Shown piece after piece: positions 2,686-22,895 of a stretch of DNA of 22,895 bases. A program made the translations under genes and the position numbers. Each line of letters starts with the position of its first letter. Positions within the stretch are counted from its first letter, which is position 1. The notes beneath the pieces were generated by a model. The model saw only the letters and a program-made list of their open reading frames with translations. It searched no databases and was not told the DNA's origin. Source of the DNA: a virus; IMG/VR virus record IMGVR_UViG_3300022934_000204, positions 1 through 22,895 of that record. One strand, given 5' to 3'.

Positions 2686-3608
2686 TGAAATCTATTCATA
2701 AAGAACATTACGGTGAAGACTTTTATTGGTTTATAGGTAAAGTAGTAAATGATTTAGATCCTGAATTTTTAGGAAGAGTTCAGGTTAGAGTTTATGGGAT
2801 TCACTCACAAAGTCAAGATGATTTGCCTAATGCACATTTACCTTGGGCTCAATGTTTAATTCCTAGCACTGAAGGTGGAATTTCTGGGATTGGAAAACAC
2901 GCAAAGATTTTACCAGGAGCTTTAGTTTTTGGATTTTTTATGGATGGTAGGTCATGTCAAATCCCATTTATTCTTGGTTCTATACACCACACTGAAACAC
3001 ACATAGGCGGTTCTAATAATGCGACTGAAGCAAACCCAGATGTATTTGATCCAAGAGGAAGAGATCAAATTCCTGGTGTAACACCGTCAGCTGGAAGTGG
3101 CCAAACTTCTTCTGCACCAGGTAATTCTAATAGAATTGATACAGCATTACCGGGAGGAACACCTGCTGAAAAGATTTTTAATTTCTTTACAAGAAATGGA
3201 CTAACCCCAGCACAGGCTTCAGGGTTTATTGGTAACTTTTATGCTGAGTCAAGTTTAAATCCTGCAGCAAGAAATCCAAATGATAAAGGAAAAGTTTCTG
3301 AAGGTTTAGCTCAGTGGAGAGGATCAAGAAGAGACGATCTTATAGCGTATTCACAACAAAATGGATTGGATTATAAAACTTTAGATGCGCAATTAAATTT
3401 TGTGATGCATGAGTTAAGAACAACTGAAACAAAAGCTTCAGGCGAAATTAAAAAAGCAACAACACCAAAAGAAGCAGCAATAGCTGTTTCAAGATATTAT
3501 GAAAGACCAGAATTTGAAATTGTAAACGGCCAATATACATCTCCATCTCTTAATGTAAGAACAGACACCGCAATAGATGCATATAATAGATTTGCAAGAG
3601 GAAGTTAA
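2682..3608 (+). CDS. 5: gp5-like hub OB-fold protein with tail lysozyme domain, lacking the needle
   Basis: A 308-residue protein with two clear parts. Residues about 10-110 (FYWFIGKVVNDLDPEFLGRV, VRVYGIHS, LPWAQCLIPSTEGG, LPGALVFGFFMDG) form the OB-fold domain of gp5/VgrG-type spike proteins. A Gly/Ser/Asn-rich linker (about 111-155) follows. Residues about 158-305 (TPAEKIFNFFTRNGLTPAQASGFIGNF, then AESSLNP, then GLAQW) resemble the phage tail lysozyme family Phage_lysozyme2; Glu189 in AESSLNP is the likely catalytic acid, as in goose-type lysozymes. T4 gp5 instead has a T4L-type lysozyme and then a C-terminal triple beta-helix. Here the polypeptide stops after the lysozyme, so the needle must come from another gene, probably 5121-7142. 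The first of two adjacent ATG codons (2682, 2685) is taken as start. Expected role: local peptidoglycan digestion during tail penetration. Confidence 0.82.
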   Translation: MMKSIHKEHYGEDFYWFIGKVVNDLDPEFLGRVQVRVYGIHSQSQDDLPNAHLPWAQCLIPSTEGGISGIGKHAKILPGALVFGFFMDGRSCQIPFILGSIHHTETHIGGSNNATEANPDVFDPRGRDQIPGVTPSAGSGQTSSAPGNSNRIDTALPGGTPAEKIFNFFTRNGLTPAQASGFIGNFYAESSLNPAARNPNDKGKVSEGLAQWRGSRRDDLIAYSQQNGLDYKTLDAQLNFVMHELRTTETKASGEIKKATTPKEAAIAVSRYYERPEFEIVNGQYTSPSLNVRTDTAIDAYNRFARGS

Positions 3609-7142: not shown

Positions 7143-7145
7143 ATA
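7138..7145 (+). promoter_or_regulatory. T4-type late promoter upstream of gp25
   Basis: The exact octamer TATAAATA, the -10 element recognised by the T4-family late sigma factor gp55, which needs no -35 box. It overlaps the stop codon of the needle-like gene (TAA at 7140-7142) and sits about 19 bases before the gp25 start, leaving a leader of roughly a dozen bases. It marks the start of the wedge transcription unit. Confidence 0.78.
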
Positions 7146-7163
7146 AAGTAAAAAGAGTTTCAG

Positions 7164-7607
7164 ATGGTAACAAAATCTTTTTCGACAGAAGATGGAAATT
7201 TAAGTAGTTCGAGCATAGTTTCGGCTCGAACTATTTATTTTAAAGATATTGATTTGTCTATGGAACTTAAGACATCAGGCGATGTCTATAAAAAAACTCA
7301 TGCTTCGGCTGTTAAGCAATCTGTGAAAAATATTATTATGACTAATTTTTATGAAAAACCATTTGACCCATTTTTTGGGGCTAATATATCTGGTTTATTA
7401 TTTGAATTAGCTAATGACTTAACAGGTGAAGAAATAAAAAATAATGTAATAAGTGCTATTGAATATTATGAGCCAAGAGCTGAAATTTTAGATTTGCAAG
7501 TAAATGCAAAACCTGATAATAATTCAATTTCAGTTCGTTTAGAATTTAAAGTAATAAATGGTGAAGAAATTATAGTACTGCAAACATCTCTATCAAGGTT
7601 AAGATAA
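7164..7607 (+). CDS. 25: Baseplate wedge subunit gp25
   Basis: A 147-residue protein, slightly longer than T4 gp25 (132 residues). The family core is clear: FKDIDLSMEL near residue 26, then VKNIIMTNFYEKPFDPFFGANISGLLFEL (about 54-82) and the conserved EPR motif at 103-105 (AIEYYEPRAEILDL). gp25 is the sheath-initiating wedge protein; its lysozyme-like fold carries no known enzyme activity and forms the inner baseplate ring with gp6 and gp7. The gene follows a late promoter, and a ten-base-pair inverted repeat lies within its first 25 codons (7205-7233). It ends one base before the gp6 start codon, so the two are probably co-translated. Order gp25-gp6-gp7-like matches the conserved core of contractile injection systems. 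Confidence 0.93.
   Translation: MVTKSFSTEDGNLSSSSIVSARTIYFKDIDLSMELKTSGDVYKKTHASAVKQSVKNIIMTNFYEKPFDPFFGANISGLLFELANDLTGEEIKNNVISAIEYYEPRAEILDLQVNAKPDNNSISVRLEFKVINGEEIIVLQTSLSRLR
7205..7233 (+). repeat. Ten-base-pair inverted repeat with T-rich tail inside gp25 start region
   Basis: Arms TAGTTCGAGC (7205-7214) and GCTCGAACTA (7224-7233) are perfectly complementary around a nine-base loop. TTTATTTT follows directly at 7234-7241, so the RNA looks like an intrinsic terminator or attenuator. It lies inside codons 14-24 of gp25, about 60 bases downstream of the late promoter box. The structure is seen directly; its function is inference. Confidence 0.6.
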
Positions 7608-9452
7608 ATGGCCACAAATATCACATCCACAGCTCTTGATTTTCAAAATATAAAAGAAAAGCTAAAAACATATTTAGCTGACAAAGATGAATTTTCTGAT
7701 TATGATTTTGAAGGTGCAGGTTTATCAAATATTTTAGATGTATTAGCATATAATACACACTTTAATGGATTAACTGCTAATTTTGCATTGAATGAAGCAT
7801 TTTTAAATACCGCACAGTTAAGAAGTTCAGTAGTTGGCCACGCTGAAGTTTTGGGATTAACTGTTAGATCAAAAACTTCTTCTCAAGTTTCACTTAAAGT
7901 TTCTTTAGATTTATCATCAGCTGTCACTAAGCCTGATTCCATTGATTTGCCAGCATATACTTCATATACAACTAGTGTAGATGGTACATCATATACATTT
8001 TATACAATTCAAAAATATACAGCTACAGATGACGGAACTGGAGTATATGTTTTTGTAAATGATGATGGTGAAGAATCAATTCTTGCGTATGAAGGTGAAA
8101 TTGTAACAAAAACATTTTATGTTGGTGAAACAGATGATTATCAAGTTTATGTTATTCCAGATGTAAATATGGATACTGCAACCGCAGTTGTAGATGTATA
8201 TGATTCAACAACTTCATCATCTTATACTACATATACAGAATTATCACAAGCTATTACTGTTAATTCAAATTCAACATATTACACAATTAGAGAAGCTCCT
8301 AATGGTTTCTTTGATTTGCAGTTTGGAGATGGAGTTACTTTTGGTAAAGCACCAACAGTTGGAAGCAAAATTGTAGTAAAATATTTAAGAGCAAGTGGTG
8401 GTGGTGCGAATGGAAGTTCTTCATTTTCTGCATCATCTGATATTACAGTAGACTCAATTGATTATACACAGACAGTAGTTACTTTATCTAAATCAACTGC
8501 TGGAGCAGAAAAACAATCTATTGAATCTGTAAGACAAAACGCTCCAATAGCTTTTGCAGCACAACAAAGATTAGTAACACCTTTAGACTATGAAGGTTTG
8601 ATTCAATCTAAATTTACAAGTGTTAGATCAGTGAAAGCTTGGGGTGGTGAAGATAATATACCTTTAGATTATGGTAAAATGTTTATTAGTTTACAGTTTG
8701 ACGATGATGTTACAGCTGCATCTCAAACAACAGTAAAAGCCAATATTCAAACACAATTGACTGATAACTTATCAATTGGATCAATCACGCCAGAATTTGT
8801 AGATCCTGAAAATGTTTATTTAGAACCAACAGTAATATTTGAATATGATCCTGATCTAACCGGTTTAACAGCAGGTAATATGGAAAGCAGAGTTAAAACA
8901 AAAGTAATTAACTATGTAAATACAAACATGAATACTTTTGGTAAAGTATTTAGAAGATCTATTTTACTTGCTGATATTGATGAAATGGATAATGCAATAC
9001 TTTCTTCAAAAATGGATTTAAAAGTACAATTAAGGTTAACTCCAACGTTTGGATCTACCGCTTATGCATATGATTTAAAATTCCCAGTTCCAATTGCTTT
9101 ACCAGATGATGTGAATTACGTAATAAAATCTGAAAACTTTGTTCATTCAAATGGGACTGTTGCTTTTATTAGAAATAAATTAAAAACTTCTAATTTACAA
9201 CTTATAAATGCTACAACTGGATCAGTAATTGCTGATAATATTGGATCATATAAAAACACTAATGGAGTTGTTTCTATTAGTTCTTTATCACCATTATCTG
9301 TTTCAAGTGGAAATACTTATATTAAGTTTTCAGTTACACCTGCAAATCAGTCGGTTATAAGACCTCTTAGAAATTATATAATTAAAATAGATCCACAGAA
9401 AACTGTTGCTGCAGCTTTAAAAGATGATCAGAATACGAAAGTCTCATTATAA
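7608..9452 (+). CDS. 6: Baseplate wedge subunit gp6 (baseplate J-like)
   Basis: A 614-residue protein, close to T4 gp6 (660 residues). The N-terminus has the characteristic LDFQNIKEKLKTYLADKDEF, then LSNILDVLAYNTHFNGLTAN and LNTAQLRSSVVGHAEVLGL (about residues 10-85). Around residues 304-335 it has VRQNAPIAFAAQQRLVTPLDYEGL, the signature of the baseplate J/gp47 family, and a C-terminal half of alternating strands and helices (VKTKVINYVNTNMNTFGKVF). gp6 dimers form the iris-like ring that holds the six wedges together around the hub and drive the change from the extended to the contracted state. The start is immediately after the gp25 stop. The stop TAA overlaps the next ATG by one base. Nothing is missing compared with the family. 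Confidence 0.93.
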   Translation: MATNITSTALDFQNIKEKLKTYLADKDEFSDYDFEGAGLSNILDVLAYNTHFNGLTANFALNEAFLNTAQLRSSVVGHAEVLGLTVRSKTSSQVSLKVSLDLSSAVTKPDSIDLPAYTSYTTSVDGTSYTFYTIQKYTATDDGTGVYVFVNDDGEESILAYEGEIVTKTFYVGETDDYQVYVIPDVNMDTATAVVDVYDSTTSSSYTTYTELSQAITVNSNSTYYTIREAPNGFFDLQFGDGVTFGKAPTVGSKIVVKYLRASGGGANGSSSFSASSDITVDSIDYTQTVVTLSKSTAGAEKQSIESVRQNAPIAFAAQQRLVTPLDYEGLIQSKFTSVRSVKAWGGEDNIPLDYGKMFISLQFDDDVTAASQTTVKANIQTQLTDNLSIGSITPEFVDPENVYLEPTVIFEYDPDLTGLTAGNMESRVKTKVINYVNTNMNTFGKVFRRSILLADIDEMDNAILSSKMDLKVQLRLTPTFGSTAYAYDLKFPVPIALPDDVNYVIKSENFVHSNGTVAFIRNKLKTSNLQLINATTGSVIADNIGSYKNTNGVVSISSLSPLSVSSGNTYIKFSVTPANQSVIRPLRNYIIKIDPQKTVAAALKDDQNTKVSL

Positions 9453-10417
9453 TGAAAACTTTAACGGATTTAAATAGATTACCTATTTCTATGCAAAAAA
9501 GCATGGTAAAAGAAATTTTACCAGCTTATTTTGTTCAGGATTATCCTAATTTAATTACGTTTTTAGATGCATATTATGATTTTTTAGATAGTGGTGATAA
9601 TTTTGGCGATTTAATTCAAGATTTATACACAATTAGAGATGTTGAAGCAAGTACTTTATCACAATTAGACTTATTATTTAAAGAAGTTGCTTTAGGCATT
9701 TCAAATACACAATTTACGACACCTAGAGAAGTTTTACGTAATTTTGCTAAATTTTTTAGGTCAAAAGGTACAAAATATTCCGCTGAGGGATTTTTTAGAG
9801 CTTTTTTCGGTGAAGATGTAACAATTTCAAATCCTAAAGACAATTTGTTTATTGTTGGTGAGTCAGAAATTGGGATGGACTCACTAAAATACTTACAAGA
9901 TGGTGCATTATACCAATTTTTATCAGTTTTAGTAAAAGTTCCTCTTTCAATCGCAACTTGGGGAAATTTATACAAGAAATTTGTTCATCCAGGAGGTTTT
10001 TATCTTGGTGCTGAAGTTTTAATTGAAACATCTCAGTCAACAAGTTTACTTGGACCAACAATAATATTAGATTCTGACTTATATTCTGATTCTGGCGAAA
10101 TAACAGTTGTAAGTGAAGGTAATCTTATTGATGATTTAATTACAGCTCAGGATCTTTCACTAATTCAAACTATGGGTAGAACTGAATATATTAATTCAGG
10201 TGCTTATGTTTGGACTTTACCATCTGGTTTACTTGAAACTGATAGTAGTTACACAGATAGAAATGCAGATTCAGATCAAACAGTTTATACTGTAAGACTT
10301 GAACCTAATATGCAAATTAGAGATAAACAAACCTTGACAGTTTCACAATTAGATTCTGATTATACATCAATTTATGATTTGATGCAAAATACATACGAAT
10401 ATTACCCTGCATCTTAA
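9452..10417 (+). CDS. 7: Short gp7/gpI-like baseplate wedge protein
   Basis: A 321-residue protein in the place of T4 gene 7, between gp6 and gp8. Residues about 20-125 read like the P2 gpI (tail protein I) core that also lies inside T4 gp7: LITFLDAYYDFLDSGDNFGDLIQDLYTIRDVE, LSQLDLLFKEV, then PREVLRNFAKFFRSKGTKYSAEGFFRAFFG, where the KGT segment is typical. Residues about 170-195 (NLYKKFVHPGGFYLGAEVLIE) follow, and a Ser/Asp-rich tail (about 200-321) carries three Asp-Ser-Asp tripeptides. T4 gp7 has 1032 residues, so this would be a minimal version lacking the large peripheral domains. In the wedge it should form a heterotrimer with two gp6 chains. Identification rests on synteny plus the gpI-like pattern. 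Confidence 0.68.
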   Translation: MKTLTDLNRLPISMQKSMVKEILPAYFVQDYPNLITFLDAYYDFLDSGDNFGDLIQDLYTIRDVEASTLSQLDLLFKEVALGISNTQFTTPREVLRNFAKFFRSKGTKYSAEGFFRAFFGEDVTISNPKDNLFIVGESEIGMDSLKYLQDGALYQFLSVLVKVPLSIATWGNLYKKFVHPGGFYLGAEVLIETSQSTSLLGPTIILDSDLYSDSGEITVVSEGNLIDDLITAQDLSLIQTMGRTEYINSGAYVWTLPSGLLETDSSYTDRNADSDQTVYTVRLEPNMQIRDKQTLTVSQLDSDYTSIYDLMQNTYEYYPAS

Positions 10418-11824: not shown

Positions 11825-14800
11825 ATGACTATAACCTTCACAGAAAATATTCTTAATACAAGATATAGAGATGACTATTTAGATAGTGATAACTATTATA
11901 GAATTCTCTTTAATAAAGGAAGAGCTTTGCAAGCGAGAGAACTTACTCAAATGCAAACTATTCTTCAAAATCAAATTGAAAGATTTGGTAGAAATATTTT
12001 TAAAGAAGGTGCATCAGTTGTTCCTGGTGGTGCAACTTTAGATGATACAGTAGAATTTGTTAAATTAAACACAACTACAAACGCTTTCCCTACAGATGGC
12101 TCTGAAATTAATGAAACGTTTACTGGTCAAAATTCTGGAGTTAAAGTTCGAGTTCTTTCATCAGAAGCGGCATCAGGCTCAGATCCTGCAACTCTATTTG
12201 TGACATATACAAATACATTAAGTGGAACTACTGGATCAACACCTATTCGTTTAAGCGCTGGTGAAGATATTGTTGGAGATAACACTGGTACTACTTTAAC
12301 GGTTCAAACAACAAATACTGGTTCAAATCCTGCTGTTGGTAAAGGTGTTAAGTTTTCGATTAGTGAAGGTTCATTTTTTGTAAATGGATTTTTTGTATAT
12401 GCTCAATCGCAATCTTTAATTATCTCAAAATATACACCGGATGTAACAATTGAAGTTGGATTTAAAATAGTTCAAGAAATTGTAACTTCTGATGATGATA
12501 GTGGTTTATATGACAATTCAGGTTCTGTTCCAAATACGACAGCTCCTGGCGCGGATCGTTATAGAATTAGGTTAGTTTTAACAACAAGAGACGATATAGA
12601 TTCAGATGAAACTTTTGTTTATTTAGCTAAACTAGTAAATTCAGAAGTAAGAGATGTAGTAACTGGATTTAATCAATATAATAAAATTAATGATCTATTA
12701 GCTCTTAGAACAAAAGAAGAATCAGGTAATTATATTGTTAAACCTTTCAAAATTTCTTTTGATTCTGATGGAGATGACAATACTAAACTTGATTTAAATG
12801 TAAGTGATGGTACTGCTTATGTAAATGGTTATAGAGCAGCTAAAGCGATCCCATCAACAATCTCAATGAATAGAGCTAGAGATACACAATTATTAGAAAA
12901 TGAAGTTGTAGCAGCTAATTATGGAAATTATATTATTGTTGAAAATCTTTTAGCATTACCAAATATTCATCAATTTGGCACAGTAAATTTAAGAGATAAT
13001 GCCACCTATTTTCAAGGTTCTAATATTGGTACTGCAAGAATTAGAGCAATTGATGCTGCAGGAAATAATACTTATAGATTATATCTATTTAATATTTCTA
13101 TGAATAGTGGTTATAATTTTAGAGATGTTAGGTCTATTGGAACATCTGCAGAAGATAATTCTTCTTTAGTTTTAGAAAATGGTATAGCTGTTTTAAAGGA
13201 TGCTAACAATGAAAGTTTAATATTTCCTCTTCCAGAACAAAGACCATCTAATATTGAAGATATTTCTTTACAAGTACAAAGGCGCTTTCTTGTAACAGCA
13301 GACTCAGCTGGAGCTGCATCTTTAAACTTATCAGCAACTGGAGAAACGTTTTCCAATACAACAGATTGGCTTGTTTCTGTTGACTCAAGTGGAGAAATTA
13401 TTTCTCCAACTATTTCAGGTTCTGGTGCAACATCTGCATCAATTACATCTGCTCCAACTGGATCACTACTTGAAATTATTGCATACGTAAATAAATCAGC
13501 AGGACAAATTAGATCTAAAACTGATACTGAAACTACAGACATTGCTTCTATAGAATCTGATGGTTCTGGTGTTAAATACGTAGATCTTGGATTAGTTGAT
13601 GTATATGACTATAGCTACATTCGTGATGATTCAGCTAATGGTAAAGATATTTCACATAAATTTACACTTGATGGTGGTCAAAGAGATGCATATTATGGAT
13701 TAGGCAGATTAGTTCTTAAAGGTGGTCAAACTCAAAATAATAGTGTTGCTTACAAAATTAAACACTTTACACATGGTGCTACAGGTGACTTTTTTGGAAT
13801 CAATTCATATTCAGGATTTAATTATGCTAGAATTCCTAGTCATACTTTAAAAGATGGTACTATAATTGATCTTAGAAATTATTTAGATTTTAGACCAACT
13901 GTAAACTCTAGTAATACTTTTACAGGTGGAACTGCAAGAATTAATGAACTACCTAAAAACACAGATTTAATTAATGCAGATGTAACTTATTATCTACCAA
14001 GATATGACAGATTAATCTTGGATGAAAATGGCAATGTAAGTGTCTTAGAAGGTGTTTCTTCTTTAGATCCTAAGTTTAAAGAAATTCCTGAAAATTCTAT
14101 TGAGCTTTACAGATTTAGAATGAATCCATATACTCTTAATGATTCAGATATGGATGTGCAATACGTTGAAACAAAAGGCTACACGATGAAAGATATTAAT
14201 AATATCGAAAAGCGTGTTGATAGATTGGAAGAAACAACTGCACTTACACTATTAGAGCTTGACACTAGTATTTTAGAAGTTTTGGATTCTTCAGGCAACA
14301 ATAGAACAAAATCTGGCTTTTTGGCTGATAATTTTGTAGATCACTTCCATTCATTGGTTGGTAATCCTGAGTATAGAGCTTCTATTAATCCTCAAAAAGG
14401 AACATTAAACACAGCCTTTGTTGAAAAAAATGTTGGACTAGTTTATGATTCAGACGAATCTACAAACACTATCATTAAAGGCGATAACATTTATATTAAA
14501 TATGATGAAGAAGAGTGGATTGTTCAAGATAAAGTATCTCGTACTGAAAACGTTAACCCATATGCAGCATTCCAATTTAATGGTCAATTAATCATTTCTC
14601 CAGCATCAGATGAGTGGAGAGATGTTACTATTGGCACTAGAGTTATTGATGGTGGAAGTCGTATCCCTACTAATCAAGAACTTTTAGCGCAATCTATTGA
14701 ATGGAATTGGAATGGTGTTGATAGAGAAACAGGCGAAGCAGTTTCAAGAGTAGTTTCTAATAGAACTATTAGAACATTAGTTGATGATCGTGTACTTGAT

Positions 14801-16789
14801 ATTGCAATTGCACCATTCATAAGATCTAGAAGAGTATTCTTTAAAGCTGCAGGACTCAGACCGAATACAAAAATTATTCCATACTTTGATCAGGTAGATG
14901 TATCAACATGGTGTAGAGCAACTACATTCCAAAATGTAAATGCTGGTCGTACTGAATTCGGAAATACTCAAAATAACGCTACGACTCACCCTGATGGTTC
15001 TTCAGAGCTATTTACTGATGCTGGTGGTGAAGTTGAAGGTTCATTCTTTATTCCAAACACTTCGTCAATACAATTTAGAACTGGTGCTAGAGAATTTACA
15101 CTTTTAGATATTACAGCGTATGATCCAGATAATTCTAGTTCTGTAGCTACAGCAATCTATACTGCTGAAGGAGTATTAGAAACTAGACAACAAACTATTA
15201 TTTCTACAAGATTGCCGCCGCCCCCTGCGCCTCCTCCTCGTCCAAGAAGACCAAGAAGAATTGATCCAATTGCTCAATCTTTTTATGTCAGTGAAGAATA
15301 TGGCGCATTTATCACAAAAGTACGGCTATTCTTTAAAACTAAATCAGATGATATGCCAGTTTGGGTACAAATTCGTCCTATGGTAAATGGCCATCCTTCT
15401 GATACTGAAATCATCCCAGGATCTGTAAAAATCTTGCAACCTGCTAATGTTGCAATTTCTGATGATGCAACATCTCCAACAGATTTCGAGTTTGATGAGC
15501 CTCTTTATCTTGCACCTAATACAGAATATTGTGTAGTAGTTATGGCTGACACTACTGATTATAATGTATATATTGCAAAAATGGGAGAATTTATTTTAAA
15601 CACTACAACTGCTAGAGTTACTAAACAGCCTACATTAGGTTCTTTCTTTAAATCGCAGAATGCAATGACATGGGATCCTGCACAAGATGAAGACTTAATG
15701 TTTACATTGTATAGAGCTGATTTTGATACTGCTACAGATGGAGTTGCATATTTAAGAAATGACACTCTTCCAAATAGACTACTAAATAGTAATCCTATTT
15801 CTACAACATTGGGTGATTCTGATGTTTATGTAGCACATAAAGATCATGGTTTCTCAGTAGGAGATGAAGTAACTATTCAAGGTGTAAGTGAAGCTGTTGG
15901 TGGAATTCCTGCAATTTCACTAAATGGTGTTCACACAATTACAGAAGTTGATGGGTTTGGATATAAACATACACACACTTCTGCTGCAACATCAACAAAT
16001 AGTGGTGGTGGATCCGCAGTATTAGCTAATGAAAACGCAATGTTTGATGTCTTATATCCATACATTCAAACAATTGCTCCAGATAAAACGGGTCTACTAT
16101 TTAATGGTAAGTTCCATTCAGGTAAATCTTTTGCTGGAACTGAAACACCATATTTAGAAGATGCTACACAAACAGCATTAAATAATCGTGGAGCTAATTA
16201 TTTCTCTAATCCAAAAGTTGTAGCTAACTCTGATAAAGAAGGTGACTTAGGAACAGAGACTGCTAAGATGTATGTTACAATGACTACAGAAAACTCTTAC
16301 GTTTCACCAGTTCTTGACTTACAACGTGCATCTCTTTCTATGATTAATCATAGAATAGACAAACAAGCTGCAGCTGCAGCAACAGGGTTTAATGTTCCAA
16401 TTGATTACGTTGCGGAAACTGATCCTCAAGAAGGATCACATATGTCTAAACATATTACAAAACCTATCACACTTGTTAATGATGCAGTTGGCCTAAAAAT
16501 ATTAATTAGTGCTAATAGACCTTCTGTTTCTGACTTTGATGTTTACTATAAAACACTTGGTGAAAATGATGTTATTTCAGATGTAAATTGGGTTTTAGCA
16601 TCGAAAGAAGCTAATGTTCCAAGTGATGAAAATAGAGAAGTTTATAGAGATTATAGATATCTTGTTGGTGGTGATGGTGGTTCTTTAGATCCATTTACAA
16701 TTTTCCAAATTAAAATTGTATTTAAATCAACTAATAGTTCTAAAGTTCCAACGATTAAAGATTTGCGGGTTATTGCACTTGGCGTATAA
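11825..16789 (+). CDS. Giant virion structural protein with DUF4815-like N-terminus
   Basis: A 1654-residue protein, the largest in the window. Its N-terminus (LNTRYRDDYLDSDNYYRILFNKGRALQARELTQMQTILQNQ) matches the start of the DUF4815 family of large phage tail proteins that I recall from T4-like cyanophages. The chain is long and beta-rich; a helical stretch lies near residues 785-815 (DINNIEKRVDRLEETTALTLLELD). At residues 1131-1145 there is a Pro/Arg-rich hinge, PPPPAPPPRPRRPRR. Next comes RIDPIAQSFYVSEEYGAFITKVRLFFKTK (about 1145-1173), which resembles a carbohydrate-binding-like beta-sandwich start seen in other phage tail proteins. A second beta-rich region ends in TIKDLRVIALGV. Position after gp8, and the lack of gp9-gp12 homologues nearby, suggest it replaces T4 gp10-type wedge periphery or links fibres to the baseplate. 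Six Asp-Ser-Asp tripeptides occur. Exact role unproven. Confidence 0.75.
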   Translation: MTITFTENILNTRYRDDYLDSDNYYRILFNKGRALQARELTQMQTILQNQIERFGRNIFKEGASVVPGGATLDDTVEFVKLNTTTNAFPTDGSEINETFTGQNSGVKVRVLSSEAASGSDPATLFVTYTNTLSGTTGSTPIRLSAGEDIVGDNTGTTLTVQTTNTGSNPAVGKGVKFSISEGSFFVNGFFVYAQSQSLIISKYTPDVTIEVGFKIVQEIVTSDDDSGLYDNSGSVPNTTAPGADRYRIRLVLTTRDDIDSDETFVYLAKLVNSEVRDVVTGFNQYNKINDLLALRTKEESGNYIVKPFKISFDSDGDDNTKLDLNVSDGTAYVNGYRAAKAIPSTISMNRARDTQLLENEVVAANYGNYIIVENLLALPNIHQFGTVNLRDNATYFQGSNIGTARIRAIDAAGNNTYRLYLFNISMNSGYNFRDVRSIGTSAEDNSSLVLENGIAVLKDANNESLIFPLPEQRPSNIEDISLQVQRRFLVTADSAGAASLNLSATGETFSNTTDWLVSVDSSGEIISPTISGSGATSASITSAPTGSLLEIIAYVNKSAGQIRSKTDTETTDIASIESDGSGVKYVDLGLVDVYDYSYIRDDSANGKDISHKFTLDGGQRDAYYGLGRLVLKGGQTQNNSVAYKIKHFTHGATGDFFGINSYSGFNYARIPSHTLKDGTIIDLRNYLDFRPTVNSSNTFTGGTARINELPKNTDLINADVTYYLPRYDRLILDENGNVSVLEGVSSLDPKFKEIPENSIELYRFRMNPYTLNDSDMDVQYVETKGYTMKDINNIEKRVDRLEETTALTLLELDTSILEVLDSSGNNRTKSGFLADNFVDHFHSLVGNPEYRASINPQKGTLNTAFVEKNVGLVYDSDESTNTIIKGDNIYIKYDEEEWIVQDKVSRTENVNPYAAFQFNGQLIISPASDEWRDVTIGTRVIDGGSRIPTNQELLAQSIEWNWNGVDRETGEAVSRVVSNRTIRTLVDDRVLDIAIAPFIRSRRVFFKAAGLRPNTKIIPYFDQVDVSTWCRATTFQNVNAGRTEFGNTQNNATTHPDGSSELFTDAGGEVEGSFFIPNTSSIQFRTGAREFTLLDITAYDPDNSSSVATAIYTAEGVLETRQQTIISTRLPPPPAPPPRPRRPRRIDPIAQSFYVSEEYGAFITKVRLFFKTKSDDMPVWVQIRPMVNGHPSDTEIIPGSVKILQPANVAISDDATSPTDFEFDEPLYLAPNTEYCVVVMADTTDYNVYIAKMGEFILNTTTARVTKQPTLGSFFKSQNAMTWDPAQDEDLMFTLYRADFDTATDGVAYLRNDTLPNRLLNSNPISTTLGDSDVYVAHKDHGFSVGDEVTIQGVSEAVGGIPAISLNGVHTITEVDGFGYKHTHTSAATSTNSGGGSAVLANENAMFDVLYPYIQTIAPDKTGLLFNGKFHSGKSFAGTETPYLEDATQTALNNRGANYFSNPKVVANSDKEGDLGTETAKMYVTMTTENSYVSPVLDLQRASLSMINHRIDKQAAAAATGFNVPIDYVAETDPQEGSHMSKHITKPITLVNDAVGLKILISANRPSVSDFDVYYKTLGENDVISDVNWVLASKEANVPSDENREVYRDYRYLVGGDGGSLDPFTIFQIKIVFKSTNSSKVPTIKDLRVIALGV

Positions 16790-17009
16790 TGATAGTAGAT
16801 ATGTTAAAATTGAAGGACATACAGACCTAGTTAAAGATAAAGTAACTGGGGCTGTATTGAATGTAAGTAAAGATGTAAATAAAGCTAGAAAAGCAAAAAA
16901 TATAAGACAAGAAAAAGAACGTGAATTTGAAAACTTAAAAAATGATGTAAAAGAAATGAAAGATATGCTTGAAAAAGTCATAAGCGCTATGAGTAAAACC
17001 AATGGCTAG
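16779..17009 (+). CDS. Small charged coiled-coil protein, conserved-type hypothetical
   Basis: The recognisable protein begins near NDSRYVKIEGHTDLVKDKVTGAV and continues with a Lys/Glu-rich helix (KARKAKNIRQEKEREFENL to MKDMLEKVIS), so it is a short globular head plus coiled coil. I recall similar small proteins beside tail genes of marine T4-like phages, with no known function. The start is uncertain. The only in-frame ATG is at 16716, which would add 21 residues read from within the giant protein gene. A TTG at 16779 gives LAYNDSRYVKIEG as the start of the chain and is preferred here because the overlap is only 11 bases. The ATG at 16789, in the TAATG context used throughout this genome, is in another frame and stops after 13 codons. 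The last codons overlap the next gene start (17002) by eight bases. Confidence 0.6.
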   Translation: MAYNDSRYVKIEGHTDLVKDKVTGAVLNVSKDVNKARKAKNIRQEKEREFENLKNDVKEMKDMLEKVISAMSKTNG

Positions 17010-17274
17010 AAAAGTAAGAGTAGATTTAAGTGATCATTTCGAAGCTTGGAGAGAAAAAACAAATTTACTCTCCAAGAATATTGGTGATTTTGATAGATTA
17101 TTACCTCACATTGCGGATTCAGATATAGTTGATGCGGTGAATGACACATTTCTAAGAAGACAAAACTGGCCAAGAGATGATAGTTTAAGCTTAATTAATT
17201 CTGCAGGAACAACTCTTAAAACGATTTGGCTATATGATAGTGATGGTGGTGCACCAGGTGTAGATTATAGTTGA
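17002..17274 (+). CDS. Small tail-associated protein with WREKTN motif, copy A
   Basis: A 90-residue protein beginning MARKVRVDLSDHFEAWREKTNLLSKNIGDFDRL and continuing with ADSDIVDAVND. The pattern VDLSD..(x)..WREKTN.LS...GD.D.L...DSDIV.A.N is shared with the protein at 17308-17553, so the two are tandem paralogues. Similar segments occur, as I recall, at the N-termini of tail fibre proteins in marine phages, where they would attach the fibre to the baseplate. Here the module stands alone, without a fibre shaft or tip. The C-terminal part (LSLINSAGTTLKTIWLYDSDGG) is a short beta-rich tail also matched in the second copy. The start overlaps the end of the preceding gene by eight bases. Function as adaptor or minor virion protein is inference. 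Confidence 0.72.
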   Translation: MARKVRVDLSDHFEAWREKTNLLSKNIGDFDRLLPHIADSDIVDAVNDTFLRRQNWPRDDSLSLINSAGTTLKTIWLYDSDGGAPGVDYS

Positions 17275-17275
17275 T

Positions 17276-17283
17276 TATAAATA
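17276..17283 (+). promoter_or_regulatory. T4-type late promoter between the tandem paralogues
   Basis: Exact TATAAATA octamer starting one base after the stop codon of copy A and 24 bases before the start of copy B. No strong Shine-Dalgarno sequence is visible in the leader (only AACGGTG), so the second copy may depend on its own promoter for expression. Confidence 0.72.
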
Positions 17284-17307: not shown

Positions 17308-17553
17308 ATGGCAAAAGTTTACGTAGATTTAAGTGATACTATTGATCAATGGAGAGAGAAAACTAATGTTTTGTCTTGGGATGTTGGTGATTTAGATAAT
17401 TTAACAGTGCCAGCTGATCACGATTCAGATATTGTTGAAGCTATTAATTATGTTTATAATTTCTCTCCTATAAGAGATGAAAGATTAATTATTCGAAACG
17501 CTAGTGGTACAATAGTTAAAGATTTACATGGTTTCACAGATTCGGGTGGTTAA
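17308..17553 (+). CDS. Small tail-associated protein with WREKTN motif, copy B
   Basis: An 81-residue paralogue of the preceding protein: MAKVYVDLSDTIDQWREKTNVLSWDVGDLDNL, then HDSDIVEAINYVYNF, and a C-terminal LIIRNASGTIVKDLHGF that aligns with LSLINSAGTTLKTIWLY in copy A. By eye, identity is highest in the WREKTN region and the DSDIV.A.N segment. The gene has its own late promoter (17276-17283), unlike copy A. A different production level or timing for the two copies is therefore likely. It ends six bases before the 305-residue structural gene. The role is unknown; a fibre-attachment or wedge-decoration part is the most reasonable guess. Confidence 0.75.
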   Translation: MAKVYVDLSDTIDQWREKTNVLSWDVGDLDNLTVPADHDSDIVEAINYVYNFSPIRDERLIIRNASGTIVKDLHGFTDSGG

Positions 17554-17559
17554 TTTTTC

Positions 17560-18477
17560 ATGGCAGTACGTAGACCACTCAAGCTAAATGGTTCTGATTT
17601 AAAAGAAATGAGTGATTCTGACATCGATGATGTTCAGAACAGAATGATATATCTTTATGGTCAAAACCCTTCTGTTACATTAGTAGTTGTATCAACTGAC
17701 GGTAATTTAGGACCTATTGTTGATACAAGATTGGAAGCTGGAGATCCTAACTTATCGGGAGGAGGAGTTGATCCAGTATCAATAAAATCTATATCATATT
17801 CTCGTGTTCATCAATTGGTAGATAGCGGTGCATCGTATTGGCCCGATTCAGATAATATTTCGTATCCTACTTTTTTAGATAGTGATAATAATATTAAAGC
17901 AATGACCCCAACAGATTTTTATGATACGTTTACAAAACCTTCTATTGATAAACTTGTGCAATCTACATACACTAATGAAGAGCAGGCTGGAACTTATTTT
18001 GTTTCTACAAGTAGAAATGTTCCAAATTCAACATTAATATCTTTACTTCCAATATTCACTGATACTATTGCAGATGCTGAAGAGTTTATGGCTGGATCAA
18101 TGCCAGAACTTAGAGATCAGCCTTTGACAGTAAATAACTATTATTTACATATGGTAGATCCAAAGCCAAAAACATCTCCTAATGGTGTAAAAATTGATGA
18201 TACTAATAATTTACAAGAATATCCAGATTCTGATTTTAATGCAATGATGCAAAGAGCAATTAGATATACTGCAGCGCATTTAACAGATAACTTAGTAAGA
18301 TATGATTGGGATTCAGGAAATCCAAGAACAACAGCAATTATTGATACAATACTAGATTCAGATAATGCGGTATTAAGAGGTGGAAATAATGATACATATG
18401 ATTATGTTAGTCAGCTAGTTCCAGCAGGTGATGCTAGTGTGCGTAATACATATAATTTAAGGATTAGAAAAACATAG
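17560..18477 (+). CDS. Virion structural protein of marine T4-like phage type (MAVRRPL family)
   Basis: A 305-residue protein starting MAVRRPLKLNGSDLKEMSDSD, then MIYLYGQNPSVTLVVVSTDGNLG and VDTRLEAGDPN (about residues 28-65). I recall this N-terminal pattern from virion proteins of cyanophages and other marine T4-like phages, usually annotated as hypothetical or structural. The middle (about 85-200) has SYSRVHQLVDSGASYWPDSDN and a long helical or mixed region; the C-terminal part includes NAMMQRAIRYTAAHLTDNLVRYDWDSGNPRTTAI and ends NTYNLRIRKT. Five Asp-Ser-Asp tripeptides occur, the highest density in the window. No enzyme motif, signal peptide or membrane segment is visible. Position after the small WREKTN proteins suggests it belongs to the same outer-baseplate or fibre-connection assembly. 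Confidence 0.72.
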   Translation: MAVRRPLKLNGSDLKEMSDSDIDDVQNRMIYLYGQNPSVTLVVVSTDGNLGPIVDTRLEAGDPNLSGGGVDPVSIKSISYSRVHQLVDSGASYWPDSDNISYPTFLDSDNNIKAMTPTDFYDTFTKPSIDKLVQSTYTNEEQAGTYFVSTSRNVPNSTLISLLPIFTDTIADAEEFMAGSMPELRDQPLTVNNYYLHMVDPKPKTSPNGVKIDDTNNLQEYPDSDFNAMMQRAIRYTAAHLTDNLVRYDWDSGNPRTTAIIDTILDSDNAVLRGGNNDTYDYVSQLVPAGDASVRNTYNLRIRKT

Positions 18478-18488
18478 AGAAGTGACAT

Positions 18489-18956
18489 ATGGCGATATTT
18501 AGTAATAAGATTGTGACCGCCAAATTTTTAGATAATTCAAATACAATAATTGAAATAATCTATAAAGAAGGTGAAGAAAATATAGCTTTCGCAATGGAAG
18601 TTGATTTCTCAAATCCAGATTTTCAAGATTTACTCGAAGAAATTGATCTTGAAGAATTAGAAAAATCTACAATAAATCAACGGAAAAAAATACAAGAAGC
18701 AAAAGAAGCTTCTATTGAAGCGCGTGTTCAAGAAAGAATTAAAGAAACTCAAAGATCTGCTACACCTATGACTATGGATAACATAGTAAATGAATTATTT
18801 GAAAAAAGAAATGACATGGGATTTTTATTTCAATTTAAAGTTGCTTTATTTGCAAAAGAAAGCGTTAAAAATTGGAATGATGAAGAAGCAAAGAAAAATA
18901 TTAGAAAAAGTAAAGACTTATTTGAAATATTAAACATTATGAAAGATATTAATTAA
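18489..18956 (+). CDS. Hypothetical protein with charged coiled coil
   Basis: A 155-residue protein that I do not recognise. Residues 1-45 are beta-like (VTAKFLDNSNTIIEIIYKEG, NIAFAMEVD). About 47-92 form a highly charged helix, probably coiled coil (DLLEEIDLEELEKSTINQRKK, EAKEASIEARVQERIKETQ). The rest is helical (MDNIVNELFEKRNDMGFLFQFKVALFAKESVKNW). There is no signal peptide or membrane segment. It sits at the boundary between structural genes and the modification-enzyme cassette, eleven bases after the structural gene and overlapping the first glycosyltransferase-like gene by one base (TAATG). Translation is therefore coupled to the cassette. A chaperone or assembly role could fit its composition, but there is no direct support. 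Confidence 0.6.
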   Translation: MAIFSNKIVTAKFLDNSNTIIEIIYKEGEENIAFAMEVDFSNPDFQDLLEEIDLEELEKSTINQRKKIQEAKEASIEARVQERIKETQRSATPMTMDNIVNELFEKRNDMGFLFQFKVALFAKESVKNWNDEEAKKNIRKSKDLFEILNIMKDIN

Positions 18957-19705
18957 TGTCTAAAAATAAAATCGTTTATTTAAAATGGGGTGATAGATAC
19001 ACACAAGAACATGTAGATAGACTATATGATCAAGTAAATAAAAACTGCTCAATTGATTTTGATTTTATAACTATGGATGTAAGTGTAGGCCAGGCTTATG
19101 ATGAAATGCAAGCTCTTCAAAACAAATATTTTAGAGGAAATCAAGATCCCGAATCTTCAATAACTGTTAATGAAACGCAAGTATTTGAAAGAGAAGATGC
19201 TGGAGGAATAGCACATTTTCGTAAATATATAATGTTTATGAGAGATCACGAGTTTAAAGATTGCACTTTTTTATATCTTGATTTAGACACTATAATTAAA
19301 AATGATTTATCATATTTTTTTGATTTAAAGTTACCTAAACCTATGATTATGAGATCTTGGCAATTTAATGAAGATTTAAAATGGAAAAGATTATATAAGT
19401 TAAGAAGTTGTCCGTATTTTAATAGTTCAGTTTTACTTTGGAGAACTGGTCAAAATAGAAGAATATTTAATGAATTAATACATCCTGAAAAAATAGAATC
19501 TAATTTTTTTCATTATGGAATCAACGACAATTGGCTATTTCATAGATTTGGACCAAATGCGTATGATGAAAATCATAGAAATTGGTTTAATTTTTTTGAT
19601 AAACATATAGCAGTCTCAGATGAAAAATATATAAATGAAAATACAATTATACATACATTAGCTGGTATGACTATGAGTGAAAAAAATAAAATATGTTTAA
19701 GTTAG
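18956..19705 (+). CDS. Glycosyltransferase-like protein, paralogue 1
   Basis: A 249-residue protein with GT-A-type features. The N-terminal strand IVYLKWGDRYTQEHVDRLYDQV opens a nucleotide-sugar-binding fold, GGIAHFRKYIM lies at 83-93, and the acidic DxD motif is LYLDLDTIIKNDL (Asp109 and Asp111), the usual site for the metal and sugar-nucleotide diphosphate. FNSSVLLW (155-162) and NDNWLFHRFG (190-199) follow, where family 8-like transferases place acceptor and metal contacts. It is paralogous to the proteins at 21548-22243 and 22236-22895. No membrane segment is visible, so it should act in the host cytoplasm. The donor and acceptor cannot be read from the sequence. The start overlaps the preceding stop by one base and the end overlaps the next gene by 13 bases. 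The assignment to a transferase fold is good; activity is inferred. Confidence 0.72.
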   Translation: MSKNKIVYLKWGDRYTQEHVDRLYDQVNKNCSIDFDFITMDVSVGQAYDEMQALQNKYFRGNQDPESSITVNETQVFEREDAGGIAHFRKYIMFMRDHEFKDCTFLYLDLDTIIKNDLSYFFDLKLPKPMIMRSWQFNEDLKWKRLYKLRSCPYFNSSVLLWRTGQNRRIFNELIHPEKIESNFFHYGINDNWLFHRFGPNAYDENHRNWFNFFDKHIAVSDEKYINENTIIHTLAGMTMSEKNKICLS

Positions 19706-20310
19706 AAGATTCTTTAGTTTCAAGTTTAAGTTTAATTGATAATGAATATCCTCATAGAAAAAAAGATTTCTATAACTCTCTTTTGTATAAAAATATAAAA
19801 ATTTATAATTGGTTAGCAAATGAATATGTAAAAATTTATAAAAATAATACACCCGCTACAACAAACATTTTTGCAAATGGATTTGCAATATATGATAATC
19901 ATTATATAGAAAAAATGAATTTAGATAATATAATCTATTATGATTATGATCCAGAAGTAATTCCAATAAATTGGCAATGTTTAAAGCATATAAGATCTCA
20001 AAAATTGATTAATCAAATATGTTTAGATGTTATTTTAGATTTTGATTATTTTAGAAAAGATGACGTAGATGTTATTATAAATTTTTCGTGTGAAAAAATG
20101 ATAGATCAAAAAGTTGTAGTTAATATGATTTATCAAAATAAAAATCCAGTTTTTTGTTTTTTAGCAAGTGGAACGCATAAAAGAGGAAATATTAACATTC
20201 ATAGTTGTTTAGAAAGTTTTGAAAAATCTACAGGATTAAGTAATATTAAATACTCAGGTGAAGCACATTTTATTGATGAAAAAAAATATTTAGTTATTGG
20301 AGAAAAGTAA
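19693..20310 (+). CDS. Methyltransferase-like protein (Rossmann-type, remote)
   Basis: A 205-residue protein of very A/T-rich coding sequence. Its order of motifs suggests a diverged class I methyltransferase fold: TTNIFANGFAIYDNHY near 56-71 in the place of the glycine-rich loop, IIYYDYDPEVI (80-90) as the second strand with an acidic end, then VDVIINFSCEKM (125-136), which resembles the VINTSCEHM segment I recall in phage proteins annotated as SAM-dependent methyltransferases, and PVFCFLASG (152-160). The canonical GxGxG loop is not present, so catalytic activity and SAM binding are uncertain. It overlaps the preceding gene by 13 bases and the PP-loop gene by one base (TAATG), so it is part of the same translational unit. 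Confidence 0.5.
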   Translation: MFKLEDSLVSSLSLIDNEYPHRKKDFYNSLLYKNIKIYNWLANEYVKIYKNNTPATTNIFANGFAIYDNHYIEKMNLDNIIYYDYDPEVIPINWQCLKHIRSQKLINQICLDVILDFDYFRKDDVDVIINFSCEKMIDQKVVVNMIYQNKNPVFCFLASGTHKRGNINIHSCLESFEKSTGLSNIKYSGEAHFIDEKKYLVIGEK

Positions 20311-20990
20311 TGGAATTTAGATGTGGGCCAAAGTGGGATGAAAGAATTGTACATTTAGAACCAAAGAAAAAAATTGGTGTTTTAATGTCGTCTGGAGCTG
20401 ATAGTACCACTCTTTTTAAATTATTATGGGATAACTTTAAAGATACTCAAATTAGAATATTTAATGTTCAAACAAGTGATGATCCAAGAAAACCTCTTAT
20501 TGAAGAAATTTTAGAAAAATTTAATATAGATTTAGAACTAGAAATTGTTGGAAAAACGCGTTGGAACTGGCCAATGTCAGCTCACTATCCTAGACTATGT
20601 AAAGCTTTTCAAGAAATTAGAGATACCACAGACTGTGAAGAATTGTATTGTGGAAACATATTGCCTCCTCATCCGCAATGGTTTAAACGTTGGGATCCTA
20701 ATCAAAAAGGAATAGCAAAAAGGCCTTGGCTAACTAATGATGATTTTTTAAAAAATCCTTTTGAACATTTAGAAAAATATCATGTAATTGATCTGGGTAG
20801 AAGAAACGGTTTTTCAGACATATATAATACTACTATATCTTGCAATACCCATGCAACTATTCCGTGTGGTGATTGTATGGGTTGTTTAGAAATAGAATGG
20901 GCATATAAGCAATTAGATGAAGAAAAAGGTACAACCTTAGATGAAATGACAGATCATGCAATGATGAATTATGGAAATATAGGATGGTAA
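20310..20990 (+). CDS. QueC-like PP-loop ATPase with four-cysteine metal site
   Basis: A 226-residue protein, near the size of E. coli QueC (231 residues). SSGADSTTL (27-35) after IGVLM is the PP-loop of N-type ATP pyrophosphatases (compare SGGQDS in QueC). Near the C-terminus Cys178, Cys186, Cys189 and Cys192 (SCNTHATIPCGDCMGC) form a zinc-site pattern as in QueC. QueC converts 7-carboxy-7-deazaguanine to preQ0 with ATP and ammonia, and phage relatives make 7-deazaguanines for DNA. The middle region (GKTRWNWPMSAHYPRLCKAF, GNILPPHPQWFKRWDP) is unlike standard QueC, and no queD, queE, folE or DNA transglycosylase gene is in the window. It may therefore activate a different acid or amide in the pathway formed with its neighbours. 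Start ATG overlaps the previous stop by one base. Confidence 0.7.
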   Translation: MEFRCGPKWDERIVHLEPKKKIGVLMSSGADSTTLFKLLWDNFKDTQIRIFNVQTSDDPRKPLIEEILEKFNIDLELEIVGKTRWNWPMSAHYPRLCKAFQEIRDTTDCEELYCGNILPPHPQWFKRWDPNQKGIAKRPWLTNDDFLKNPFEHLEKYHVIDLGRRNGFSDIYNTTISCNTHATIPCGDCMGCLEIEWAYKQLDEEKGTTLDEMTDHAMMNYGNIGW

Positions 20991-21548
20991 ATGAGTGATA
21001 CTTTAAGAAAAAAATATGATGATGCCTCTGAATGGTATGAACAAAAATATATTGATGGCGGTTGGAAAAATAATCCATATATGAAAGATGAGTATGATGC
21101 TCATAAGTTTTGGCTAAAAAATGGAGAAGTTGGTAAAATTGTTTCGCTTGGCATCGGATCAGGACAAGATATCGATATTCTTGGAAAACCAGATCCTAAA
21201 ACATTTGTTGGATATGATATTTCTGAAGGAATGTTAAATAATGCTAGAAAAAAATTTCCTGAATATAAATTTAAAAATGCAGATTGTAAGGTTTACATTG
21301 ATGAAAAGTGTGATATATTAGTAAGTTTATTTGGAGTTCCAAATTATATTGGTTTATCAAAGTTGCTCGATCACTATCAAAAGATGAATGCTAAACATGC
21401 CTTTTTTGTTTTTTATGATGAAAATTATGACGATGGTTTTGGAGAGTATTATCACAAATACACTAAACAAGAGTTAGAAAAAGTTTTAAAAGCTTTTGAT
21501 CCAATAGTTGAAAAACTAAATGAAAACTATTATATTGTGAAGTGGTAA
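20991..21548 (+). CDS. Class I SAM-dependent methyltransferase
   Basis: A 185-residue protein with the main motifs of the family. KIVSLGIGSGQDIDIL (49-64) holds the glycine-rich SAM loop. FVGYDISEGMLNNARKKFP (72-90) supplies the acidic residue for the ribose, in an order close to Methyltransf_11/25 proteins. NADCKVY and CDILVSLFGVPNYI (97-120) are the later motifs. HAFFVFYDE and a C-terminal strand pair (EKLNENYYIVKW) complete a compact fold. The N-terminal YDDASEWYEQKY segment is common in small-molecule or sugar methyltransferases, and there is no DNA-recognition domain or DPPY-type motif, so DNA base methylation is unlikely. The start is adjacent to the PP-loop stop, and the stop TAA overlaps the next ATG. 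The substrate is unknown. Confidence 0.8.
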   Translation: MSDTLRKKYDDASEWYEQKYIDGGWKNNPYMKDEYDAHKFWLKNGEVGKIVSLGIGSGQDIDILGKPDPKTFVGYDISEGMLNNARKKFPEYKFKNADCKVYIDEKCDILVSLFGVPNYIGLSKLLDHYQKMNAKHAFFVFYDENYDDGFGEYYHKYTKQELEKVLKAFDPIVEKLNENYYIVKW

Positions 21549-22243
21549 TGCTGCAAATAATAGTTCATATTTGGGGCGATATGTATGGAGAAGAATACAT
21601 TGATAAGCTCAAAGAAAACATAGGTAGATATACTACTATAGATTGGAATCTTAAAGTTTTAAGAGATTATGAAACTGGTTGGGGTGAGTTTAGTAAAAAA
21701 TGGTATAGAGGTGAAGGAAACCCTAGCGTTGTTCAAGGTGAAGGTTGGATGAATGGATACCATCATTATAATTTAGGTGGGCTTCCACTTTATCGTAAAA
21801 TTTATCCTTGGGTTTCTGATGATCATGCATCTGAAAATGATGTTTGCATGTATTTAGATATAGACATGGTCATAAATGGCGATTTAAAATATTTTACTGA
21901 ATTAAATTTAAATAAGCCTTGGGTACAATATGATTATGATATGCCAGATCATAAATTAATTGAAGATTATAAAAATCAAAATATAACTCCTATTAATACG
22001 TCTGTTACAGTTTGGAAAAAAGGACAATTAAAGCCTATAGTTGATTTAATTAATAAAGATCCTGATAGAGTATTTTTTACATATAGAAGAGTAGATGCCT
22101 ATGTTTGGTATCAATTTGGTGTTAATGGTTTTTTTAATTTTTTACCAGTAACAGCAGTAGATTGGCACTGTAATGGTAAAAATCCAATAATTTCAAATTT
22201 AGCAGGTGAGCCAATAGAATTAAAGGATAAAGTAATTGTATAG
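21548..22243 (+). CDS. Glycosyltransferase-like protein, paralogue 2
   Basis: A 231-residue protein when started at ATG 21548. This start sits in the TAATG overlap used across the window and is preferred to the GTG at 21542. It shares the architecture of paralogue 1: a first strand with IIVHIWGDMYGEEYIDKL, GGLPLYRKIYPW (77-88), the DxD motif in CMYLDIDMVINGDLKYF (Asp104 and Asp106), INTSVTVW (149-156), and WYQFGVNG (187-194). It is shorter between the first strand and the GGLPLYRK segment, but contains RGEGNPSVVQGEGWMNGYHHY, which may be a specific acceptor loop. No membrane segment or signal peptide is seen. The gene overlaps paralogue 3, whose TTG start lies inside its last codons. Confidence 0.72.
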   Translation: MLQIIVHIWGDMYGEEYIDKLKENIGRYTTIDWNLKVLRDYETGWGEFSKKWYRGEGNPSVVQGEGWMNGYHHYNLGGLPLYRKIYPWVSDDHASENDVCMYLDIDMVINGDLKYFTELNLNKPWVQYDYDMPDHKLIEDYKNQNITPINTSVTVWKKGQLKPIVDLINKDPDRVFFTYRRVDAYVWYQFGVNGFFNFLPVTAVDWHCNGKNPIISNLAGEPIELKDKVIV

Positions 22244-22895
22244 AGTTATTTGTGCTAAGTGGGGAAAATTATATAGTGATAATGATGTAAATGCTTTATA
22301 CTCAAAAGTTTCAAAAAACTGTTCAGTAGATTTTGAGTTTGAGTGTTTTACAGATTTTCCAGATGAATTAGAGTCTTATAAGAAAAAACATTATAGAGCT
22401 TCTTTAGAACCAGACTATAGATTTGACGCAGTTCAAAATGGTTACCACCGTGATGATTTTGGAGGAATTCCTCATTATAGAAAAATCACACTATTTAATT
22501 TAGACACAAAATTTGATCCTAGTGATACTATTCTTTATTTAGATTTAGACACTAATATTGAAGGCGATCTGGCATATTTTTTTGAAAGCTTAAGTGATGA
22601 AAAACCTTATCTTGTTTGGAACTATTGGTGGGAAACAAAACCTGAAGAATGGTTAAGACAATTTCATATTACAAGATGTCCATTATATAATAGTTCAGTT
22701 ATGAGATGGAAACCAGGTCAGCAAAAACCTATATATGATTTTTTGTATGAGCATAAAGATAGATGTTTTTATACATACCCATCAATGGACACGTTTATGT
22801 TTCATCAATTTGGACCTTATAGTAGCAATAATAGAGATCAGCATTACGCGTATTTTCCAGAAGGAATAGTTACATCTGAAAGAGTTTTAAGTAAT
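22236..22895 (+). CDS. Glycosyltransferase-like protein, paralogue 3 (cut by window end)
   Basis: An open frame of 220 codons that runs off the right edge. A TAA at 22233-22235 closes the frame upstream, and the first usable start is TTG 22236, with AAGGA at 22223-22227 eight bases before it. This reads MYRVICAKWGKLYSDNDVNALYSKVSKNCS-type sequence, nearly the same opening as paralogue 1 (KWGDRYTQEHVDRLYDQVNKNCS). GGIPHYRKITLF (76-87), the DxD motif in YLDLDTNIEGDLAYFF (Asp103 and Asp105) and YNSSVMRW then FHQFG follow. It is more like paralogue 1 than paralogue 2. The third copy suggests a series of related transfers or a set of acceptor variants. Because no ATG starts this frame, automatic ATG-only calling would miss it. 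Confidence 0.75.
   Translation, partial: MYRVICAKWGKLYSDNDVNALYSKVSKNCSVDFEFECFTDFPDELESYKKKHYRASLEPDYRFDAVQNGYHRDDFGGIPHYRKITLFNLDTKFDPSDTILYLDLDTNIEGDLAYFFESLSDEKPYLVWNYWWETKPEEWLRQFHITRCPLYNSSVMRWKPGQQKPIYDFLYEHKDRCFYTYPSMDTFMFHQFGPYSSNNRDQHYAYFPEGIVTSERVLSN

Follow-up and report, generated by a model that had tools for sequence, protein, structure and literature searches.

We analyzed a 22,895-nucleotide window, the whole of the linear virus record IMGVR_UViG_3300022934_000204 (22.9 kb), in which T4-type baseplate genes and the gene for a VrlC-type protein lie within the first 17 kb and six tightly coupled plus-strand open reading frames (ORFs) follow 3' of this baseplate/VrlC region in the order GT1, X1, PP-loop (PPL), MT, GT2, and GT3. 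We found that PPL, a QueC-fold protein, and MT, a predicted methyltransferase, form a linked two-gene module inside a modular glycosyltransferase (GT) array. The array itself is of an already described kind, and its unusual feature is this strictly paired QueC-fold/methyltransferase add-on. We consider the chances about even that the array makes a glycan decoration late in infection, most likely on virion tail proteins, that is capped by amidation and methylation; we infer both the chemistry and the target.

A QueC-fold protein paired with a methyltransferase

Two scans of IMG/VR for PPL recovered 12 viral contigs (L002 to L013), and MT was the next gene in all 11 that extend past PPL, the twelfth (L013) ending inside the PPL gene. 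A separate scan for MT recovered the identical 11 viral contigs. The sole match for PPL from a cellular source (L014) was an 8.9-kb contig with phage-like content that had been binned into a Lewinella genome and is probably a binning contaminant. Its gene set consists of a radical S-adenosylmethionine (SAM) gene, a GT, an X, a 569-amino-acid (aa) GT8-like protein, PP-loop, MT, PhyH, another gene, GT3, and an X. A tblastn search of 50,697 phage records returned no match for PPL, GT3, or X2 and only weak matches for MT, and among isolated phages none matched the window closely at the DNA level. MT matches Pfam Methyltransf_11 above the cut-off (E = 4.8e-5) and has an invariant glycine-rich motif I (SLGxGSGQD), by which we assign it as a class I SAM methyltransferase.

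PPL matches Pfam QueC above the cut-off (E = 7e-6), and the best Foldseek match of its model was B. subtilis QueC (3bl5, E = 2e-5), with Cap9 lower (9nto_B, E = 1.3e-3), in agreement with the QueC-like PP-loop enzyme that an earlier sequence-only annotation of the window (the original prediction) had proposed. Invariant in PPL are an SSGxDS ATP loop (canonically SGGxDS, with G changed to S at position 2), K156 in PF(x)4K, and a four-cysteine zinc motif, C178-x7-C186-xx-C189-xx-C192, that is entirely C-terminal and whose x7 spacing also occurs in aligned Bacteroidota QueCs. Three further segments, RW-x-WPM, HYPRLC, and KRxW, are likewise invariant in PPL. Canonical QueC thus has in common with PPL the fold, the SxGxDS loop, C(x)7CxxCxxC, and the conserved P...K lysine. 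In contrast, the QueC residues Y35, R99 (VPxRN), Y131 (YPDC), and Y189, which are essential (PMC13329287), have no conserved equivalents in PPL: in an alignment with 15 Bacteroidota QueCs, Y35 is replaced by N52 and Y189 by an invariant N179, and the VPxRN and YPDC segments are missing. Related viral contigs of up to 121 kb, all of which are fragments, yielded no FolE, QueD, or TGT/DpdA (PF01227, PF01242, PF01702); radical SAM genes occur in G004 and G008 far from the array, and no search aimed at QueE was made. Because essential residues are changed or missing and the preQ0 partner genes were not found, PPL appears to use the QueC scaffold and is not filed here as a QueC.

The QueC fold and the Pfam match would be expected if PPL carried out 7-deazaguanine (preQ0-type) chemistry as a QueC, supplying phage DNA or tRNA with a modified base that is then methylated and glycosylated, and phages with QueC-dependent DNA modification are reportedly known. 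We regard this explanation as highly improbable, given the nonconserved QueC residues (PMC13329287), the partner genes not found, and GTs of a GT8-like kind that lie amid baseplate genes. Canonical preQ0/DNA base modification was therefore rejected, on the lost residues and on the partners missing from the contigs searched. Phage DNA and tRNA, both among the targets suggested in the original prediction, are disfavored because the related viral contigs lack recognizable FolE, QueD, and TGT/DpdA.

Another reading is that PPL, like QatC and Cap9 in deazaguanylation, joins a nucleobase or another carboxylate to the N-terminal end of a protein of the virion or the host; we regard this as very unlikely. 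Cap9 also has a QueC fold diverted from preQ0 and, besides being a Foldseek match, has the same PF(x)4K motif and C(x)7CxxCxxC spacing (PMC13329287), but its YxDC and RN motifs are absent from the PPL alignment and no CD-NTase was recognized in the array. QatC is about 400 aa long with C(x)19CGxCxxRR and Qat neighbors, whereas PPL is 226 aa with a different cysteine spacing and GT and MT neighbors. Neither a Qat nor a Cap10/TGT partner accompanies PPL, which is always found with the methyltransferase inside GT arrays. A reading of the pair as defense genes was also rejected, as PADLOC gave just a generic QueC match for PPL and a weak mad2 match for MT.

The role proposed here for PPL, glycan synthesis, is that of the N-acetyl sugar amidotransferases (NASATs) WbpG, WbuX, and LpNASAT, which also combine a PP-loop with a zinc tetracysteine; those of WbpG type modify sugars of the O antigen (PMC10607449). 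These enzymes differ from PPL in having CXXCXn[GN]XCXXC with SGGXDS and a length of 300 to 400 aa, the PPL cysteines being in another order, and PPL had no NCBIfam match to the NASAT/WbpG family.

Modular glycosyltransferase arrays in related marine phages

GT1, GT2, and GT3 are paralogues with 28 to 34% identity, as had been predicted, and an invariant D-x-D (D109/D111 in GT1); GT2 is 28 to 31% identical to GT1 and GT3 with the same D-x-D, and GT3 is 64 to 72% identical to GT3 of relatives. GT1 alone gave a weak match to Pfam Glyco_transf_8 (E = 0.0021). Pfam GT8 (PF01501) was matched by 8 of 20 members of the GT family (best E = 1.2e-6), and the family profile matched the GT8 crystal structure 5gvv (E = 1e-4). 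These profile matches and the D-x-D identify GT1 to GT3 as likely GT8-like glycosyltransferases.

No library searched gave a significant sequence match for X1. Its AlphaFold model (predicted local distance difference test score [pLDDT], 86.9; predicted template modeling score, 0.86) gave Foldseek matches to class I methyltransferases and nicotianamine synthase (best E = 1.6e-6, probability 1.00), so that the modeled fold of X is that of a class I methyltransferase. Motif I in X proteins is degenerate (SGFGFYS-like) and variable among members. X2, a paralogue of X1, lies directly 3' of GT3 in relatives. The two methyltransferase-type proteins of the original prediction are therefore borne out, MT by Pfam and X by its predicted fold.

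A scan for GT3 yielded 16 contigs, and in relatives the array continues beyond the end of the window with X2 and two further genes of 296 and 219 aa before the tail-fiber genes. The 219-aa protein matches a GT PHROG (E = 6e-4), and the 296-aa protein looks GT-like by eye from a DID motif. The composition of the array varies by whole sub-modules. Five of the 16 contigs, in two sets of near-copies (L083 to L085 and L087 to L088), have GT1-X1-GT2-GT3-X2 and the two further genes without PPL-MT, and L009 and L010 have PPL-MT-GT2-GT3-X2 without GT1-X1. In L007, L012, and L014, the genes 3' of PPL-MT are, in order, one for a PhyH-type dioxygenase (Pfam E = 3e-11 in L007), one further gene, GT3, and X, and in L012 this set lies near a DNA polymerase gene. 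The single joint six-gene pathway of the original prediction is thus rejected, because GT1-X1 and PPL-MT are each cleanly absent from otherwise colinear arrays. The genes do nevertheless co-occur in related phages, and their active-site motifs appear intact (D-x-D in the GTs, SSGxDS and four cysteines in PPL, SLGxGSGQD in MT), these being the two points on which that prediction had expected it might fail. Because two PPL-less lineages nest inside PPL carriers on a VrlC tree, the simplest reading of the absence of PPL-MT would be one joint loss; the root could not be placed from trees of GT2 and GT3.

Two other variants adjoin the PP-loop gene. In L003 (positions 9258 to 10004) and also in L011, an extra gene for a 248-aa protein, INS248, lies between X1 and PP-loop; its by-eye likeness to sulfotransferases was unsupported by Pfam, PHROGs, and a PDB search. 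In L005, a 146-base gap 5' of the PP-loop gene (positions 9855 to 10000) contains an exact TATAAT together with a short inverted repeat, which suggests a separate promoter in this lineage.

The array appears to lie in a host-recognition-cluster setting, in a T4-like marine relative of the pelagimyophages. The pelagimyophage study describes a variable cluster, bounded by VrlC and gp14, that contains several GT8 enzymes and radical-SAM cassettes (PMC7029224). The window likewise places several GT8-type GTs and variable content 3' of VrlC, which lies directly upstream, with tail-fiber-type genes downstream in relatives; the gp14 end is beyond the reach of the contigs. In contrast to the window, neither a QueC-like/methyltransferase pair nor GT-X pairs are mentioned for this cluster in the accessible part of the open-access literature. 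The original prediction knew of no standard pathway that combines these parts in this order next to baseplate genes; the setting as such has a precedent in this GT8-containing cluster (PMC7029224). Because the VrlC of the window is just about 30 to 33% identical to that of HTVC008M and Mosig, its phage belongs to another lineage than these two. In Mosig EXVC030M, genes of aminotransferase, radical-SAM, carbamoyltransferase, and methyltransferase type adjoin VrlC.

Late promoter position and the candidate acceptor

Across 240 kb from this phage group, the plus strand has 37 copies of the element TATAAATA, which we take to be a T4-type late promoter core, and the minus strand has 3. Of the plus-strand copies, 19 are 15 to 35 nucleotides (nt) before a start codon, versus 2.4% expected; homologous sites in related contigs are not fully independent in these counts. 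Copies stand 18 to 31 nt before structural genes at window positions 7138, 10418, and 17276 and in relatives (L003, 15011; L005, 15034; L009, 14895; L083, 10973). No copy was found between the one at 17276 and the cassette, and in relatives the next copy after its equivalent is just before a tail-fiber-type gene past the array. A scan for sigma-70-type promoters inside the cassette found no more than expected by chance. Because the last element precedes the cassette and the next precedes the tail fiber, the cassette is probably cotranscribed with the late baseplate genes. Probable late expression favors a virion acceptor over early exclusion of rival phages, without proving it.

These observations are consistent with a model in which GT1 to GT3 and the two further GT-like genes of relatives would use nucleotide sugars of the host to assemble a short glycan, and X1 and X2, encoded directly 3' of GT1 and GT3, probably O-methylate it. 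PPL-MT would serve as an optional two-gene decoration module. PPL may use ATP to adenylate a carboxyl (or comparable C=O) of a sugar precursor or of the glycan and then replace the activated group with an amine to yield an amide or amidine, and MT may methylate the same unit on which PPL acts. The acceptor is most likely a virion tail or baseplate protein, with a host surface glycan as the main alternative. The conserved structural-type protein S305, encoded upstream of the cassette and in a second copy beside tail-fiber genes in relatives, is a possible acceptor.

Several points weigh against this model. PPL is at most 18% identical to the solved proteins that it matches in structure, and its model is only moderately confident (pLDDT, 73; residues 119 to 140, <50). 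The GT8 Pfam scores are mostly under the gathering cut-off, with the individual window proteins all below it. Late, virion-linked expression does not extend to all carriers, because PPL-MT in L007, L012, and L014 lies away from baseplate genes, with no late promoter found 5' of it. Furthermore, the authors of the pelagimyophage study favor host O-chain modification (PMC7029224).

The host-directed alternative, in which the cassette alters the lipopolysaccharide O-chain during infection to block coinfecting phages or keep progeny from adhering to debris and PPL-MT changes a sugar of the glycan, is in our view possible though rather unlikely. The proposal made for pelagimyophage GT8 genes (PMC7029224), the action of WbpG-type PP-loop enzymes on O-antigen sugars (PMC10607449), the location of cellular QueC-like proteins in glycan loci, modular variation that fits an arms race, and the L012 array, which lacks a strict link to structural genes, all speak for it. 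However, placement behind a late promoter within a structural unit would be late for superinfection exclusion, and no flippase or polymerase was recognized in the array.

The cellular parallel comes from a divergent QueC-like family, SGWDSTFRLL (P0007 and relatives), found in 6 of 198 Bacteroidota genomes. In the loci scanned, GT1/GT4/GT9 glycosyltransferases and TupA-type ATP-grasp genes were frequent neighbors, and one of the six genomes (L064) had no obvious glycan cluster. We found no study of these proteins in the open-access literature. They have the QueC C-terminal zinc region in common with PPL; only this region, the C-terminal 46 residues, aligned by hhalign, on which ground we rejected PPL as a relative of the family. 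The family thus lends plausibility to a glycan role for QueC-like enzymes by analogy rather than by homology to PPL. Its members (L053, positions 6711 to 7439; loci L064 to L068) are mostly in polysaccharide gene clusters, with a tandem pair in L065.

More doubtful than the decoration model as a whole is the fuller proposal that PPL-MT is an undescribed module of a QueC-fold glycan-carboxyl amidating enzyme and a methyltransferase, giving a switchable, capped glycan on tail proteins, and that a separate bacterial QueC-like lineage works similarly in polysaccharide loci; we consider it unlikely as a package. If a QueC-fold enzyme did act on glycans, a superfamily of nucleobase chemistry and defense-protein tagging would gain another branch of chemistry, paralleled in bacterial polysaccharide loci. 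Marine T4-like phages carry many GTs of unknown purpose, and because colinear arrays that have or lack each sub-module occur naturally, a comparison of their virions or of host glycans could reveal what each part produces.

Gene layout, composition, and additional features

The six consecutive coupled genes were confirmed at the coordinates predicted originally, with junctions of 0 to 13 bases (Table 1); from S155/GT1 through GT2/GT3, these are 1, 13, 1, 0, 1 or 7, and 8 bases.

Table 1. Coordinates of the cassette genes and of neighboring features in the window
Feature	Position	Strand	Description
VrlC-type baseplate protein	11825-16789	+	tblastn matches to VrlC of HTVC008M and Mosig; phrog_358
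TATAAATA	17276-17283	+	Late-promoter-type element
S305	17560-18477	+	Conserved structural-type protein
S155	18489-18956	+	Small conserved protein; one-base overlap with GT1
GT1	18956-19705	+	GT8-like glycosyltransferase
X1	19693-20310	+	Predicted class I SAM-dependent methyltransferase-fold protein
PP-loop (PPL)	20310-20990	+	226 aa; QueC-fold ATP pyrophosphatase without canonical QueC substrate residues
MT	20991-21548	+	Predicted class I methyltransferase, strictly paired with PPL
GT2	21548-22243	+	GT8-like paralogue; ATG shares last base of MT stop; alternative start GTG at 21542
GT3	22236-22895	+	GT8-like paralogue; TTG start, aligned with M of L007; 3' end cut by contig end

The cassette had been described as more A/T-rich than the structural genes. 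This holds overall (28.1% GC in the six-gene stretch versus 32.4% upstream) and comes mainly from GT1 (26.2%) and X1 (21.6%); it does not hold for the PP-loop gene (32.2%) or for third-position GC, which at 10 to 18% in the cassette genes is no different from that of VrlC (12.6%) or S305 (14.8%). Because third-position GC does not differ from that of the structural genes, we rejected a recent A/T-rich foreign island. Compared with relatives in other contigs, five of the six ORFs are 59 to 93% identical and X1 is 36 to 62% identical. Nonsynonymous divergence (dN) was 0.04 to 0.60 and synonymous divergence (dS) 0.75 to 2.2 versus L002 and L003, with the PP-loop gene the most constrained versus L002. 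These values indicate that all six ORFs are real genes under purifying selection.

Three further features lie outside the cassette. Two tandem small paralogues (17002 to 17274 and 17308 to 17553; 44% identical) flank the promoter element at 17276 and are represented by a single copy in some relatives. In the 121-kb relative, a thymidylate-synthase-type gene with one internal TAA (G008:C1:105070-105696) adjoins the radical SAM genes at 106 to 108 kb. A gp5-like hub/lysozyme region is apparently split over window positions 2682 to 3608, 3611 to 5110, and 5121 to 7142; the first of these ORFs combines a hub domain and a domain of endolysin/tape-measure type, the second has an amidase at its C terminus, and the third resumes the hub similarity.

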